Notes under the pieces: generated by a model
The model's database searches: none
What the model was told of the DNA's origin: nothing
Seen by the model: the letters and a program-made list of their open reading frames with translations, nothing else
Assembly (NCBI RefSeq): GCF_037013735.1
Contig: NZ_CP135136.1
Span: forward strand, 248,001-312,000
DNA from: Candidatus Legionella polyplacis
Lineage (GTDB): Bacteria; Pseudomonadota; Gammaproteobacteria; Legionellales; Legionellaceae
Direction: 5' to 3'
Length of the DNA: 64,000 nt
In this document: positions 42,793 through 60,160 of the stretch, one piece after another
Layout of the letters: each line of letters opens with the position of its first letter
Position numbering within the stretch: the stretch's first letter is position 1
Made by a program: the position numbers and the translations under genes

Positions 42793-44403
42793 ATGAACAA
42801 ACATCATGACATAAAAAAATATAAATTATTTTCAACAAAAACTATTAAAAAAATTTTTAACTTTATAAAAAAATGGTCTTCTACAACTAACCACAAAAAC
42901 ATAGGAAGCTTATATTTATACTTCTCCATAATAAATCTCTTTATAGGTGGATTCATGGCTTTAATCATTAGATTAGAGTTATTTCAACCAGGGCAACAAT
43001 TCATAAATTCAAACTTCTTTAATCAAATGACTACTATGCATGGACTAATTATGGTATTCGGAGTCGTTATGCCAGCATTCACAGGTTTAGCAAACTGGCA
43101 AATCCCAATGATGATCGGAGCTCCAGACATGGCTTTTCCAAGATTAAATAACCTTAGTTTTTGGTTATTACCATTTGCCTTTATTATGCTAATATCTACT
43201 ATATTTCAAAAAGGAGGTGGCCCTAACTTTGGATGGACAATGTATGCACCATTATCTACTAAATATGCACCTCCAAGTACTGATTATATGATATTCTCTA
43301 TTCATATTATAGGTATATCATCTATATTAGGAGCAATCAATATTGTAACAACAATTATAAATTTAAGAGCTCCAGGAATGAAATATATGAAAATGCCTAT
43401 GTTTGTCTGGACTTGGTTCATTACATCCTTTTTATTGCTAGCTATTATACCAGTATTAGCAGCTGCAATAACTATGATGTTAGCTGATCGTCATTTAGGA
43501 ACAAGTTTTTTCGAAGCATCAGGTGGTGGCGATCCAATACTTTTTCAACATATTTTTTGGTTTTTTGGTCACCCAGAAGTCTATGTACTAGTATTACCAG
43601 CTTTTGGTGTAATATCTGAGGTTATTCCCACATTTAGTAGAAAACCATTATTTGGATACAAATCCATGGTTTATGCAATAGTTGTTATTGCATTTTTATC
43701 ATTCATTGTATGGGCACATCATATGTTCACAGCAGGTATTTCTATAAACGCCGAACTATTTTTTATGTACACAACAATGTTAATAGCCATACCTACTGGA
43801 ATAAAAATTTTTAATTGGATTAGTACAATGTACAAAGGATCTATTACATTTGAAACTCCTATGTTATTTGCAATATCCTTTATATTACTATTCATGATTG
43901 GAGGATTCACTGGAATAATGTCTTCTTTAGTTCCATCCGATTATCAATATCAAGATACCTACTTTATTGTAGCTCATTTTCATTATACATTAGTACCAGG
44001 AGTTATCTTTGCATTATTCTCAGGAATATATTATTGGATTCCAAAATGGAGTGGATATAAGTACAATGAAAAATTAGGTAAATGGCATTTTTGGTTATCA
44101 GTAATTTCAGTAAACATTCTTTTTTTTCCAATGCACTTTTTAGGATTAGCTGGGATGCCTAGAAGAGTATCAGATTACTCTATACAATTCACTAATTTTA
44201 ATATGATCTCATCAATAGGAGCATTTATATTTGGAATATCCCAAATAATATTTTTAATAAATATATTACAGACTATTTTTAATTACAAAAATAAATCTAA
44301 AAAAGTCAATAATATAGTATGGGATGGAGCAAAAGGACTAGAATGGACTTTATCATCCCCTCCACCTTATCATAGCTTCAAAACACCACCAAAAATTAAT
44401 TAG
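42793..44403 (+). CDS. coxA: Cytochrome c oxidase subunit I
   Basis: The 536-residue catalytic subunit, with 12 membrane segments, that reduces oxygen to water and pumps protons. The heme and copper ligands are present: the His of TTMHGLIMVFG and the two histidines of VAHFHYTLV (hemes), HPEVYVLVLPAFG with the cross-linked His-Tyr pair (CuB), and WAHHMFTAG (CuB). The protein is much better conserved than its neighbours. It lies 78 bases after coxB, in the order coxB-coxA-ctaG-coxC. Confidence 0.98.
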   Translation: MNKHHDIKKYKLFSTKTIKKIFNFIKKWSSTTNHKNIGSLYLYFSIINLFIGGFMALIIRLELFQPGQQFINSNFFNQMTTMHGLIMVFGVVMPAFTGLANWQIPMMIGAPDMAFPRLNNLSFWLLPFAFIMLISTIFQKGGGPNFGWTMYAPLSTKYAPPSTDYMIFSIHIIGISSILGAINIVTTIINLRAPGMKYMKMPMFVWTWFITSFLLLAIIPVLAAAITMMLADRHLGTSFFEASGGGDPILFQHIFWFFGHPEVYVLVLPAFGVISEVIPTFSRKPLFGYKSMVYAIVVIAFLSFIVWAHHMFTAGISINAELFFMYTTMLIAIPTGIKIFNWISTMYKGSITFETPMLFAISFILLFMIGGFTGIMSSLVPSDYQYQDTYFIVAHFHYTLVPGVIFALFSGIYYWIPKWSGYKYNEKLGKWHFWLSVISVNILFFPMHFLGLAGMPRRVSDYSIQFTNFNMISSIGAFIFGISQIIFLINILQTIFNYKNKSKKVNNIVWDGAKGLEWTLSSPPPYHSFKTPPKIN

Positions 44404-51378: not shown

Positions 51379-52558
51379 ATGATACATAAAAAAAAAATTC
51401 GATATCATTATTATAGGAGGAGGATTAATAGGATTAATATCAGCTATTGCCCTAGCAAAAAACAATTTTTCTATTGCAATTATCGAAAAAAATGCTATTC
51501 CAAAAAAATCCATCATTAAAACCCCAAAAATTTATACTATTACTTCCACATCAAAAAAATTTTTAAAACATATCGGTATATGGAACGCATTAAAGAAAAA
51601 TCCATTTAAAAAAATATATCTATATGATTCCATAGGAAAATCTTCCATTACATTTGACTCTAAAACAATACAATTACCTCAACTAGGATATATAATTTCC
51701 GATTATAATATAAGAATTACCTTACTAAAAAAAGCCCATCAATTACAAAATATCTTTTTTTTTTCAATAAACACTATAAACAGTATTATAGATACTAATA
51801 CCGGAATCAATGTAAGCAATCAAAAAAATACATGGATTGGAAAATTATTACTAATTACAGATGGAAAAAAATCTATTGCAAAAAAAATATTAAAAATTCC
51901 TACAATATCTTGGCCATACAAACAAAATGCTATCACTGCTATTATCCTTACAGAAAAACCTCATCATTATATAGCCTATCAAAAAACTAGTATTAACGAA
52001 TCATTAGCTATTTTACCATTAAAAAACAAAAAAATATCATCTATAATATGGTCTTTGCCTTGTAATATATCAAAAAAAATGATGTGTTTTAAAGAACAAG
52101 AATTTACTTCTAAACTACAAACAATATTAAATAATAAACTTGGAAAAATAATATTAAAAAGTAAACGACACATATTTCCAATAAAAATACATAACACAAA
52201 GCAATATTCTGGAAATAAATGGATATTATTAGGAGATGCAGCTCATACAATTCATCCAATAACTGGAATGGGATTTAACATAGGAATATATGATATATTA
52301 GTTTGGATTAACTGTTTAAAAAAATTTAATAATAATCTAAACTCAAAAAAAGCTTTACAACTATATAATTGCAAAAGAAAAAAACATGTATGGAAAGCTA
52401 TATGTACAACAGAAATATTAAAATACACTTTATATCATCCAAAAAAATCTATTATTAAATTACGATCATTAGGATTAAAAATATTAAATAACATAATTCC
52501 AATTAAAAATAAAATTATTAAAGATGCAAATGGAGAAAGATATATTAAATTTTTATAA
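51379..52558 (+). CDS. ubiI: Second ubiquinone FAD hydroxylase (UbiI/VisC-like), frameshifted in a run of 10 A after the start
   Basis: ATG 51379 is followed by ATA CAT and a run of 10 A (51388-51397). Just after it, from TTC 51398, one frame stays open to 52558 and encodes FDIIIIGGGLIGLISAIALA, ITDGKKSIAKK and LLGDAAHTIHPITGMGFNIG, the three FAD motifs of the family. Nine A would join ATG to this frame and give about 392 residues, the normal length. In that frame a TGA lies at 51380 and no ATG occurs before the FAD loop. So it is a very recent frameshift, read by slippage, or started at a rare codon such as ATA or ATT. Confidence 0.8.
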
Positions 52559-55142: not shown

Positions 55143-55510
55143 AACCTATAAATAATCAATTAAAAATATTAATTTAATTAAATTAGCTATTACAATAGCA
55201 TATAATGAAATTTTTCAAGTATTACAATTTTTAAAAAAATATTTTTTAATTTAAATTTTATCAGAATAAAAATTCATAAAACTATTTAAGATAACATTTT
55301 AGATGTTATATAATTTATATTTTAAAAATACAAACTTACGATTAAACTTTATTTACAGTAAATATTTTTCATAAATTACTAACAAACTTTAGAAAAGTAT
55401 TTAAATAATTATTAAAATTATGTGTAATAAAATTACATGTTTTATAACGCTAAAATATTAAAAAATAAACTTAATATTTTTAAAAATATTTAAATTCAAA
55501 AATAGAAATA
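55143..55510. other. Intergenic region ubiB / polA
   Basis: A 368-base AT-rich gap. A 6-bp dyad GCTATT-AC-AATAGC lies at 55186-55199. No ORF is seen and no convincing promoter can be picked out. Confidence 0.4.
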
Positions 55511-56341
55511 ATGAAACCTTTAATACTAATAGATGGATCTTCTTATCTTTTTCGTGCATTCCATGCTATACCAATATTAAAAACTTCTACAAATTTCCCA
55601 ACTAATGCTATATATGGAGTGATAAAAATGATCAAACAAATATTAAAAGTTTTCTCTCCAGAAAAAATGGCTATTATATTTGATTGTAAAGAAAAAACTT
55701 TCAGGCATAAACTTTATCCTCAATATAAAAAAAATAGAAATAAAACCCCAAGCCAATTAATCTGTCAATTCATACCTCTAATAAAAATATTAAATGCCAT
55801 GGGCATTCATACTTTATTTATTAAAGGAATAGAAGCAGACGATATAATAGGAACAATTGCAAACCAATATGAAAAAAATAATATTCCAGTAATTATTTCA
55901 ACAACAGACAAAGATATGCTACAACTAGTTAATAAAACAACCACGATCATTAACACAAAAAATAATGAAATTATTGATGAAAATAAAATTTTAAAAAAAT
56001 TCAGTATTAGACCAACTCAATTTATAGATTATTTATCTTTAATCGGAGATCAATCAGATAATATACCTGGAATATTTCAATGTGGTCCAAAAACAGCTGT
56101 AAAATGGATTAAAACTTATAACACATTAGAAAATATAATTAAAAACTCTCATTCTATTAAAGGGAAAATCGGATATTACCTACAAAAATCTATAAAATAT
56201 CTCCCTATATATAAAAAACTAATTACTATACAAAAAAATATTAATTTACCCCATAATATTAAAAATTTAAATATAAAAAAACCAAATAAACAATTATTAA
56301 ATCAATTAAGTAAAAAAATGGAATTTAAAATAAATATATAA
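55511..56341 (+). CDS. polA: DNA polymerase I, 5'-3' exonuclease (flap endonuclease) domain as a separate protein
   Basis: A 276-residue protein equal to the N-terminal nuclease domain of Pol I, which removes RNA primers. Metal-binding and helical motifs are visible: LILIDGSSYLFRAFHA, IIFDCKEKTFRHKLYPQYKKNR, KGIEADDIIGTIA, STTDKDMLQLV and SLIGDQSDNIPGIFQCGPKTA. It stops with TAA at 56339-56341 after QLSKKMEFKINI, which is where the nuclease domain ends in full-length Pol I. The polymerase part begins 28 bases on in a different frame. The nuclease looks fully functional. Confidence 0.92.
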   Translation: MKPLILIDGSSYLFRAFHAIPILKTSTNFPTNAIYGVIKMIKQILKVFSPEKMAIIFDCKEKTFRHKLYPQYKKNRNKTPSQLICQFIPLIKILNAMGIHTLFIKGIEADDIIGTIANQYEKNNIPVIISTTDKDMLQLVNKTTTIINTKNNEIIDENKILKKFSIRPTQFIDYLSLIGDQSDNIPGIFQCGPKTAVKWIKTYNTLENIIKNSHSIKGKIGYYLQKSIKYLPIYKKLITIQKNINLPHNIKNLNIKKPNKQLLNQLSKKMEFKINI

Positions 56342-56369
56342 ATTTAATTTTTTATTCAACAAAAAATTT

Positions 56370-58193
56370 ATGTACAAAATCAAACAAAAAAACAATAAAG
56401 AATACTTAATAATACCTATAGATCACTACAAAACTTTTAAAAATTTCATCAATCATTTAAACTCCTCTAAAGAGTGCTTAATTAAAATTAAAAACCATCA
56501 AAACTTACACAACACAAACAAAACAACTATAACAATTCTAATCATTATAAAAAATAATATTTACTATATACCAATAAACATGAATAAAAACAACCACGAA
56601 ACAAAATTAAACCAATATAAAATTTTAGATATATTAAAAATAATATTAGAAAATCCAAAAATAAATAAAATTGGATTTAATATAAAAAATGAATATAAAA
56701 TTCTAAAACAATTCAATATCAATTTAAATGGAAATCTTTTTGATATAACAATTGAATCTTTTATCATAAATAATTCCATTAATTCCAATAATTTACACGA
56801 TCTTTCAAATAGATATTTAAAATATGATTTATCAAAAAATGAATATAAAATTAAATGCATTTCAAAACCTACTTTTAACATCGAATTTGATTTAATAAAA
56901 CAAACTATCATCATCAATATGATTCATAAAAAATTATTTAAAATGTTAAATATTAAAGAAAAAAAAATATTACTGGACACTGAAATTCCAATCATAAAAA
57001 TACTTTCATCAATAGAAAACAAAGGAATCTTAATAAATAAAAAAATACTATTAAATCATAAAGATCTCTTAGAAAAACGTATATCTATAGTTAAAAAAAA
57101 AATTTTTTCTTTAACAAATAAACCATTCAATTTAAATTCTACTAAACAATTACAAGAAATTTTATTTAAAAACTTAAAAATCCCTGTACTAGAAAGGACA
57201 TCAAAAGGCAAACCATCTACATCAGAATCTGTATTAAAAAAAATATCTCATAAATATAAAATATCAAATTTAATACTAGAATATAGAACCTTATATAATA
57301 CTATTACAACATATATACAATCATTACTACAACATATACATCCAATCAAAAAGAAAATTCATACTAATTACAATCAAACAACAACTATTACCGGAAGATT
57401 ATCTTCAAACAAACCTAATTTACAAAATATTCCAATTAAAAAAGAACAAGCCAAAATGATTAGACAAGCATTTATCTCTCATAAAAAATTCACTCTTATA
57501 TCTGCAGATTATTCACAAATAGAATTACGTATTGCTGCATTTTTATCTAAAGAAAAAAAACTTATTCAAAACTTCAACAAAGGAATAGATATTCATACAT
57601 TAACAGCCAGCGAAATATTCTCTACAAAAATAAAAGAAATTACCTATGATCAACGTCAATATGCAAAAAAAATTAATTTTAGTTTACTTTATGGAATATC
57701 AGCATTTGGCTTATCAAAACAATTAAATACAGACCAAAAAAAAGCACAACAATATATTGAATCCTATTATAAAACATATCCTAAATTAAAAAAATACTTA
57801 AAAAGTACACAAAAAAAAGCTATAAAAAAAAAATATGTAAAAACATTATTTGGAAGACGTATATACTTGATAAACAACAAAAAAAAACTTATTAAAAACA
57901 CATCTTTAGAACGAACAGCAATTAATGCTCCTATACAAGGAACAGCATCAGATATTATGAAAAAAGCAATGATCTTAACTTATAACTGGTGTAAATCACA
58001 AAAATTTCCTATATGGATAATTATGCAAATACACGACGAATTAATTTTCGAAGTTTGTGACTCTCACTTAATTGAAGCAACTCACAAAATAAAGCTCATT
58101 ATGGAAAATGTTGTTACTAGCATAAACATTCCATTAAAAATAACAATTAACATAGGAAAAAATCTAAAAGACCTTAAACCATTATCTATATAA
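56370..58193 (+). CDS. polA: DNA polymerase I, Klenow-like part (inactive proofreading domain plus polymerase) as a separate protein
   Basis: A 607-residue protein matching the large fragment of Pol I. Polymerase motifs are intact: motif A ADYSQIELRIAAFLS (Asp380), motif B RQYAKKINFSLLYGISAFGL, and motif C MQIHDELIFEV (Asp556). The 3'-5' exonuclease fold is present by length, but its first metal site (FDTET in E. coli) reads LIKIKNHQNL and the last (YAAEDAD) reads TIIINMI, so proofreading is almost surely lost. There is no clear Shine-Dalgarno before ATG 56370. Joining it to the nuclease ORF needs a +1 shift with no homopolymer in the short window available, so true gene fission is likelier than slippage. 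Confidence 0.9.
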   Translation: MYKIKQKNNKEYLIIPIDHYKTFKNFINHLNSSKECLIKIKNHQNLHNTNKTTITILIIIKNNIYYIPINMNKNNHETKLNQYKILDILKIILENPKINKIGFNIKNEYKILKQFNINLNGNLFDITIESFIINNSINSNNLHDLSNRYLKYDLSKNEYKIKCISKPTFNIEFDLIKQTIIINMIHKKLFKMLNIKEKKILLDTEIPIIKILSSIENKGILINKKILLNHKDLLEKRISIVKKKIFSLTNKPFNLNSTKQLQEILFKNLKIPVLERTSKGKPSTSESVLKKISHKYKISNLILEYRTLYNTITTYIQSLLQHIHPIKKKIHTNYNQTTTITGRLSSNKPNLQNIPIKKEQAKMIRQAFISHKKFTLISADYSQIELRIAAFLSKEKKLIQNFNKGIDIHTLTASEIFSTKIKEITYDQRQYAKKINFSLLYGISAFGLSKQLNTDQKKAQQYIESYYKTYPKLKKYLKSTQKKAIKKKYVKTLFGRRIYLINNKKKLIKNTSLERTAINAPIQGTASDIMKKAMILTYNWCKSQKFPIWIIMQIHDELIFEVCDSHLIEATHKIKLIMENVVTSINIPLKITINIGKNLKDLKPLSI

Positions 58194-58311: not shown

Positions 58312-59277
58312 ATGAAATGGATCGCACAAGCACCATCTAATATTGCACTGATTAAATATATGGGGAAAAAAAATAAAATCAATAACTTACCTATAAATTC
58401 ATCATTATCTTATACTTTAAACCGTTTTAAAAGTACAGTTTTATTAGAATATAATAAAAAAATAAAACAAGATTTATGGAAACCGCTATCAATAACAAAA
58501 ACTAACCATACAAAAAATATTTTTTTACTATCTATATCAGAACAAAAACGTTTTTTAAAACATTTATCTAGGATAAAATCATATTTTAACTATAAAGGAT
58601 CATTTATTGTTCAATCAAACAATAATTTTCCGATAAGTGCTGGCATATCAAGTTCTGCATCAAGTTTTGCAGCATTAACTAAATGTGCAATATTAGCAAT
58701 CAGTACAATTAAGCAGTGTCCTATCCCATCAATTACAAAACAAGCTAACATAAGCAGAATGGCATCAGGATCATCTTGCAGATCATTTTTTTCTCCATGG
58801 ACACTATGGAAAAAAAATAATTTGGTTTTATCACCAAAAATAAATTATAATAATCTAAAACATCAAATTATTCTCATTGATAAAAAAAAAAAATACATAT
58901 CATCAACCCAAGCACATAATTTAATAGAAACTAGTACCTATTTTAAAACACGACACAAAAGAGCAAATAATAACCTAAAAAAATTATTTAAAGCCATCAA
59001 ATATAAACATTGGAAAAATATTTATAAAATATGTTGGGAAGAATTTTTTGATCTACATAGATTATTTATAACTAGTAAACCATCTTTTTCCTATATAAAT
59101 CAAAAAACAGAAAATGCACTTTTAATGTTAAAAGAATTATGGAAAGTAAAAAAAGACGGACCTATCATAACGATGGATGCAGGTCCAAATATACACCTAT
59201 TATATAGAAATGACCAAACAAAATTAGCTTTAAATTTTAAAAATTACTGTATAAAACAAAATTATGACATACTTTAA
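58312..59277 (+). CDS. mvaD: Diphosphomevalonate decarboxylase
   Basis: A 321-residue GHMP-family enzyme that makes isopentenyl diphosphate from mevalonate diphosphate. It starts WIAQAPSNIALIKYMGK, has the phosphate loop FPISAGISSSASSFAAL, RMASGSSCRSFFSPW, and the catalytic Asp in ITMDAGPNIHLLY. All are typical of MvaD. Its end overlaps mvk by 14 bases. Most Gammaproteobacteria use the MEP route; Legionella and Coxiella are among those with a mevalonate route (known). Confidence 0.95.
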   Translation: MKWIAQAPSNIALIKYMGKKNKINNLPINSSLSYTLNRFKSTVLLEYNKKIKQDLWKPLSITKTNHTKNIFLLSISEQKRFLKHLSRIKSYFNYKGSFIVQSNNNFPISAGISSSASSFAALTKCAILAISTIKQCPIPSITKQANISRMASGSSCRSFFSPWTLWKKNNLVLSPKINYNNLKHQIILIDKKKKYISSTQAHNLIETSTYFKTRHKRANNNLKKLFKAIKYKHWKNIYKICWEEFFDLHRLFITSKPSFSYINQKTENALLMLKELWKVKKDGPIITMDAGPNIHLLYRNDQTKLALNFKNYCIKQNYDIL

Positions 59278-60160
59278 TGATATTAAAATTATTGCTCATG
59301 GAAAATGGATATTAACTGGAGAACATTCAGTATTAAGAGGATATGGAGCTATAGTTTATCCTATAAAAAGTAAAATACTTTATTTAAAATATAAAAATAT
59401 CAATTCTAACACATTACATATATCCTGTAATAATAACAATATAAAAACAAATATATCTAAAATCTTTCGAAAAACACTTAAATATGGACTAAAATTAATA
59501 GAAAAAAAAACAAATAACTTTAATGGCTATATAAATATATATAACAATATTCCAATGGGAATGGGAATGGGCTCATCTGCTGCTATTTCATTTGTAATAG
59601 CAAAATTACTTACTAGAGTATATAATTTACAACCAGAATTAATTTATCCTTTTGCAAAAAAAATAGAGATGCGTTTTCATAAAAAAAGTAGTGGAATTGA
59701 TATCATTGGAGTCTCATCAAAAATAGGTACTTATTTTAAAAATGGAACAAATAAAATAATTAATCAAACTTGGAAACCAAAATGGTTTTTATCTTCCTGT
59801 GGAAAAACAAGTAAAACCTCTTTTTGCATTAATAAAGTTAATAATTTATGGAAAAAAAATAAAAAAAAAGCTAAAAGAATTGATATAGAAATGAAAAATA
59901 GCGTAACAAAAGCTATTTTTTCTTTAGAAAAAAAAGACCCAAAAAATTCTATTTATTATTTAGCTCAATCTATACAACAGGCACATAACTGCTTTAAAGA
60001 ATGGGGTTTAATTAATATACATCTTAAAAAACACATAAACTTATTACTAAATTTAGGTGCTATTACAGCAAAACCTACAGGATCAGGACTTGGTGGGTAT
60101 GTAATTAGTCTATGGAAACAATCTCCACCAACAACATCAATTAAATTAATTCCTATATAA
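59264..60160 (+). CDS. mvk: Mevalonate kinase (GHMP kinase)
   Basis: A 298-residue GHMP kinase. It has IIAHGKWILTGEHSVLRGYG near the start, the ATP loop IPMGMGMGSSAAISF, KKSSGIDIIGVSS with the likely catalytic Asp, and the C-terminal AKPTGSGLGGYVISLW. GEHSVLRG and the pairing with mvaD favour mevalonate kinase over phosphomevalonate kinase, though the latter cannot be fully excluded. The start overlaps mvaD by 14 bases, so both are coupled. The third kinase of the pathway is not in the window. Confidence 0.85.
   Translation: MTYFNDIKIIAHGKWILTGEHSVLRGYGAIVYPIKSKILYLKYKNINSNTLHISCNNNNIKTNISKIFRKTLKYGLKLIEKKTNNFNGYINIYNNIPMGMGMGSSAAISFVIAKLLTRVYNLQPELIYPFAKKIEMRFHKKSSGIDIIGVSSKIGTYFKNGTNKIINQTWKPKWFLSSCGKTSKTSFCINKVNNLWKKNKKKAKRIDIEMKNSVTKAIFSLEKKDPKNSIYYLAQSIQQAHNCFKEWGLINIHLKKHINLLLNLGAITAKPTGSGLGGYVISLWKQSPPTTSIKLIPI

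Follow-up and report, generated by a model that had tools for sequence, protein, structure and literature searches.

Legionella polyplacis PsAG lives in the louse Polyplax serrata as a symbiont (PMC12175528). The genome studied here, that of a sister louse symbiont, is tiny, a single contig of 530,980 bases, and the window which we have analysed is a stretch of 64,000 nt (bases 248001–312000). Here polA is found as two neighbouring ORFs, both in the + strand and both with an ATG start. ORF1 (55511–56341) has 276 aa and corresponds to a stand-alone 5'-3' (flap) nuclease, with matches to PF02739 (1.8e-55) and PF01367 (1.8e-27). ORF2 (56370–58193) has 607 aa: it contains a 3'-5' exonuclease domain, catalytically dead by prediction, followed by the DNA polymerase domain; its matches are PF00476 (4.8e-130) and PF22619 (8.8e-10). 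Between them there is a spacer of 28 nt (56342–56369), a remnant of the inter-domain linker; its length is the one given in the original prediction, which had been made from the DNA alone.

When the two ORFs are compared with the Pol I model (889 positions), ORF1 aligns to positions 2–275 and ORF2 to 300–888, so that the break is placed in the linker. Together with the ORF coordinates and the Pfam matches, this confirms that the gene is split at the nuclease/Klenow boundary and that the nuclease ORF stops at the end of its domain, as had been proposed. The best solved relative of ORF2 is the E. coli Klenow fragment (1kln): by alignment ORF2 starts at about E. coli residue 317–319, while Klenow starts at 324. 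Thus both halves are present and adjacent, but not in the single polypeptide of a canonical PolA, and neither ORF alone reaches the cut-off of the PolA equivalog (720 bits): ORF1 scores 322.5 and ORF2 570.8 bits. The top-scoring model for ORF1 is also PolA (322 bits). It was compared with Xni and other stand-alone 5' exonuclease paralogues, an assignment which we reject: it obtains 159.3 of 261 bits for Xni and 174–238 of 305–434 bits for the PRK14976 families. ORF1 shares with Xni and the Mycoplasma-type 5'-3' exonucleases the character of a free-standing flap nuclease, but it scores best to PolA and adjoins its own polymerase half.

The distance from the EFK motif, at the end of the nuclease domain, to the exonuclease motif is 45–59 codons in relatives and 69 in E. 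coli. In this genome a manual count gives about 51 codon lengths (3 codons, the stop, 28 nt and 38 codons). The total codon distance between the nuclease and the exonuclease/polymerase domains is therefore unchanged with respect to relatives, and no long deletion is needed for the split: it would be enough for a variable linker to acquire a stop and a change of frame.

Several features of the neighbourhood may be mentioned. Upstream of polA a gap of 368 nt (55143–55510) separates it from ubiB; it has no ORF or Rfam match, and it can be aligned with the sister genome described below, with many indels. Downstream, genes of the mevalonate pathway (diphosphomevalonate decarboxylase and a GHMP kinase, 58312–60160) are kept in spite of genome reduction. 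A UbiH-like FAD monooxygenase gene (51396–52558, + strand) lacks 2 nt of an A run close to the start, as seen by comparison with the intact gene of the sister (297792–298973). About its first 21 codons are out of frame: it may be a lineage-specific break or a gene corrected by slippage.

Distribution of the split and the sister genome

A polA match is present in 137 of the 140 genomes of Legionellales. Apart from the split ones, the near-complete genes consist of one frame of about 850–970 aa; those short ones which we checked are found at the ends of contigs or in fragmented assemblies. Since polA is a single frame in the other Legionellales, the split is derived in the louse-symbiont lineage. 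One large family, with large genomes only, has single frames of at least 900 aa, apart from breaks in the polymerase domain, fragments and one frame of 743 aa (G638). In a family of very small genomes neither polA domain was found in its three genomes. In two members of the class (G605:C2:470564-471687 and G562:C69:12073-13198) the frame of polA is interrupted within the polymerase domain, not in the linker as in the genome described here.

The only neighbour of the same genus in the genome collection, G001, was used as sister genome. The original prediction had proposed that the split be looked for in related symbionts, and the sister indeed carries it: polA is divided into ORFs of 276 and 606 aa (87% identical; open frame 620 aa), both of them open. 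A tblastn search of genome contigs for related loci found no relative. The spacer has 29 nt in the sister and 28 nt here; therefore ORF2 lies in a different frame relative to ORF1, +2 in the sister and +1 here. The alignment of both species from the start of ORF1 to the end of ORF2 (2.68 kb) has only two indels. One has 3 nt and is near the C-terminus of ORF2; the other has 1 nt and is found in the spacer, just after ORF1. The latter is the only one which changes the frame. Such a change was tolerated in the spacer only, as expected if the spacer is non-coding and its flanks code for separate proteins. The ATG of ORF2 and the bases before it are common to both species. As the split is shared, it is most simply placed, by parsimony, before the two species diverged.

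Single-base errors are common in A+T-rich runs, and a sequencing or assembly error might have divided one intact polA. However two independent genomes are split, with different spacers and frames, and the loss or gain of one base could not join the frames, since both stop codons would remain in between. For practical purposes the sister genome refutes an error.

In A+T-rich symbionts there are known cases of recoding and of slippage, and ORF1 contains an A7 run (56312–56318); a full-length Pol I might then arise if the two halves were connected during expression, through transcriptional slippage or programmed ribosomal frameshifting. The geometry of the junction is against it. The open frame of ORF2 overlaps ORF1 by only five nucleotides, ATATA (56334–56338, + strand), limited by a TAA in the frame of ORF2 (56331–56333) and by the TAA of ORF1 (56339–56341), and the shift would have to occur there. 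The original prediction was right that this overlap has no homopolymer, nor is there any other slippery run in it. Slippage in the A7 run would lead translation into the stop at 56331, and read-through of the ORF1 stop leads to more stops or to a wrong frame in both species. The required shift is not conserved either, being +1 here and +2 in the sister. Recoding to a full-length protein appears very unlikely from this arrangement.

Catalytic residues and selection

Conserved residues were compared with E. coli PolA and nine relatives. ORF1 keeps all nine acidic residues of the 5' nuclease domain (E. coli D13, D63, E113, D115, D116, D138, D140, D185 and D188), and the three basic residues tested are also conserved. 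In ORF2 the family A polymerase domain, with motifs A, B and C, keeps D705, R754, K758, F762, Y766, Q849, D882 and E883. The claim that all polymerase motifs are present thus holds for most motif residues, but two have changed: R682K is shared with the sister, G763S is found in the present genome only. G763S replaces a glycine in the O-helix of motif B (INFGLLYG), which is conserved in the sister and in all relatives examined.

The 3'-5' exonuclease site is in a different state. The five DEDDy residues of ORF2 have been replaced (D355K, E357K, D424E, Y497D and D501Q) in both split species, so that no active proofreading site is left; eight of the nine relatives keep all five and the ninth has changed at two. 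The exonuclease domain is retained as sequence but should not proofread, and ORF2, with all five residues lost, probably polymerises without proofreading. The Pol I of Taq and Bacillus stearothermophilus similarly retain the domain without its catalytic residues, although there it is part of a single full-length protein. About half of bacterial PolA (PolA1) proteins have substitutions in the DEDDy motif (PMC12926913); for this reason the loss excludes no membership in PolA. It was overlooked in the original prediction, but it is not rare in itself.

Selection was estimated as pairwise Nei-Gojobori omega against the sister genome, with bootstrap 95% ranges; the values are simple estimates, uncorrected for the strong A+T bias. 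Omega is 0.122 for ORF1 (0.07–0.20; dS 0.40) and 0.181 for ORF2 (0.13–0.25; dS 0.37). The 47 genes of the same region have a median of 0.143, and the two ORFs rank 17th and 34th among them. The polymerase part of ORF2 alone has 0.167. ORF2 has evolved somewhat faster than ORF1, but the values indicate that each half has been under purifying selection from the time when the two species separated. The exonuclease domain (residues 61–170 of ORF2) has an omega of 0.147: it is still under purifying selection in spite of the DEDDy loss. That both halves look functional, as had been suggested, is supported at the level of sequence by intact nuclease residues, nearly intact polymerase residues and selection on each.

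These data bear on a possible decay of the polymerase half, which might be a pseudogene on its way to the state of Buchnera, with only the nuclease half. The nuclease half alone is kept in 23 of 81 endosymbiont genomes (PMC6403173), and the proofreading site of ORF2 is gone and its evolution is faster than that of ORF1. However the reading frame of ORF2 is uninterrupted in both species, over 607 codons; the two copies differ by a single triplet indel and by no frameshift. Omega of ORF2 is 0.18 (0.17 in the polymerase part), and the catalytic residues D705, R754, K758, F762, Y766, Q849 and D882 are kept. We consider a decaying pseudogene unlikely. Nevertheless the polymerase half may slowly be on its way to loss, since ORF2 is faster than ORF1, has R682K and G763S and carries a dead exonuclease site.

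A loss of ORF1 is unlikely, because 99.8% of bacterial genomes retain a 5' nuclease (PMC12926913) and because in E. coli, in rich medium, this domain is the part of polA which is essential (PMC9713433). A family search of the genome finds no PF02739 protein besides ORF1; RNase HI and two RNase_T (DnaQ-like) proteins are also kept.

Translation of the second ORF

No Shine-Dalgarno sequence precedes ORF2, where the original prediction had seen no clear one; this carries no weight, since nearly all + strand genes are without one. Among 48 genes tested in the window it is weak or absent in 32; a reasonable one is found in only 1 of 23 + strand genes and in 11 of 25 – strand genes (P = 0.002). Even cytochrome oxidase subunit I (42793–44403) has none. 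The 16S 3' end retains the anti-Shine-Dalgarno sequence GGATCACCTCCTTA. The contrast between strands follows a strong GC skew, which has left the + strand poor in G.

The start region of ORF2 is weakly structured (MFE –0.8 kcal/mol, versus a median of –3.6). Gaps of 18–36 nt between genes in the same strand are common in the window, and a promoter scan of the polA region found sites no more numerous than in shuffles. It is likely that ORF2 is made by independent initiation, or by reinitiation, on an mRNA shared with ORF1.

A probable Pol I in two proteins

The best explanation is a stable fission of polA in its linker, which took place in the common ancestor and left two separately made proteins; we give it a probability of about 0.87. 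Fission is preferred to decay, as it was in the original prediction, because the sister has the same split with its ORFs in another relative frame, because purifying selection acts on both halves and because the catalytic residues are intact or nearly so. A single ancestral polA would have been broken in the non-conserved linker between the 5' nuclease and the exonuclease/polymerase part, before the two louse-symbiont species separated, and its two products would now be made as separate proteins. ORF1, the only member of the flap-nuclease family in the cell, would act with RNase HI in the removal of RNA primers and flaps. ORF2 would start at its own ATG (56370), probably on the same A+T-rich unstructured mRNA, and would fill gaps as a polymerase without proofreading. 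The two parts, no longer joined covalently, would then act one after the other on DNA.

E. coli Pol I and bacterial PolA in general (PRK05755/TIGR00593) have the same domain order and the same nuclease and polymerase residues; here there are two genes instead of one and the proofreading site has been lost. In Buchnera a stand-alone 5' nuclease is also found in a reduced symbiont, but the polymerase half has been lost in 16 of 18 strains, which have PolA.1 only (PMC6403173). The present species does differ from Buchnera by keeping both halves, as had been claimed, but this outcome is not unprecedented: in a clustering of 2,307 proteobacterial genomes, frameshifts in polA usually separate PolA.1 from PolA.2, and separated genes are listed for Ishikawaella capsulata and two genomes of Pantoea carbekii (PMC6403173, Table 6). 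As described there, these are also insect symbionts which keep both parts, broken at the nuclease/Klenow boundary. They are listed as a frameshift or annotation issue, whereas here the split is common to two species and under selection. The present case is a well-supported example of a kind of polA split already recorded; what it adds is the presence in two species, the changed frame, the selection kept on both halves and the loss of proofreading.

We see about an even chance that this is a stable, selected two-subunit Pol I which has given up both its covalent link and its proofreading, with the parts working in Okazaki fragment maturation either as free enzymes or by re-association without a linker. 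In one model the linker of Pol I brings the nuclease to the flap (PMC3021548). Nuclease and polymerase are tethered in Pol I, and an untethered pair kept across speciation offers a natural test of the need for such a tether. The split, accompanied by the loss of proofreading, adds a stage between a full Pol I and the nuclease-only state which is common in symbionts.
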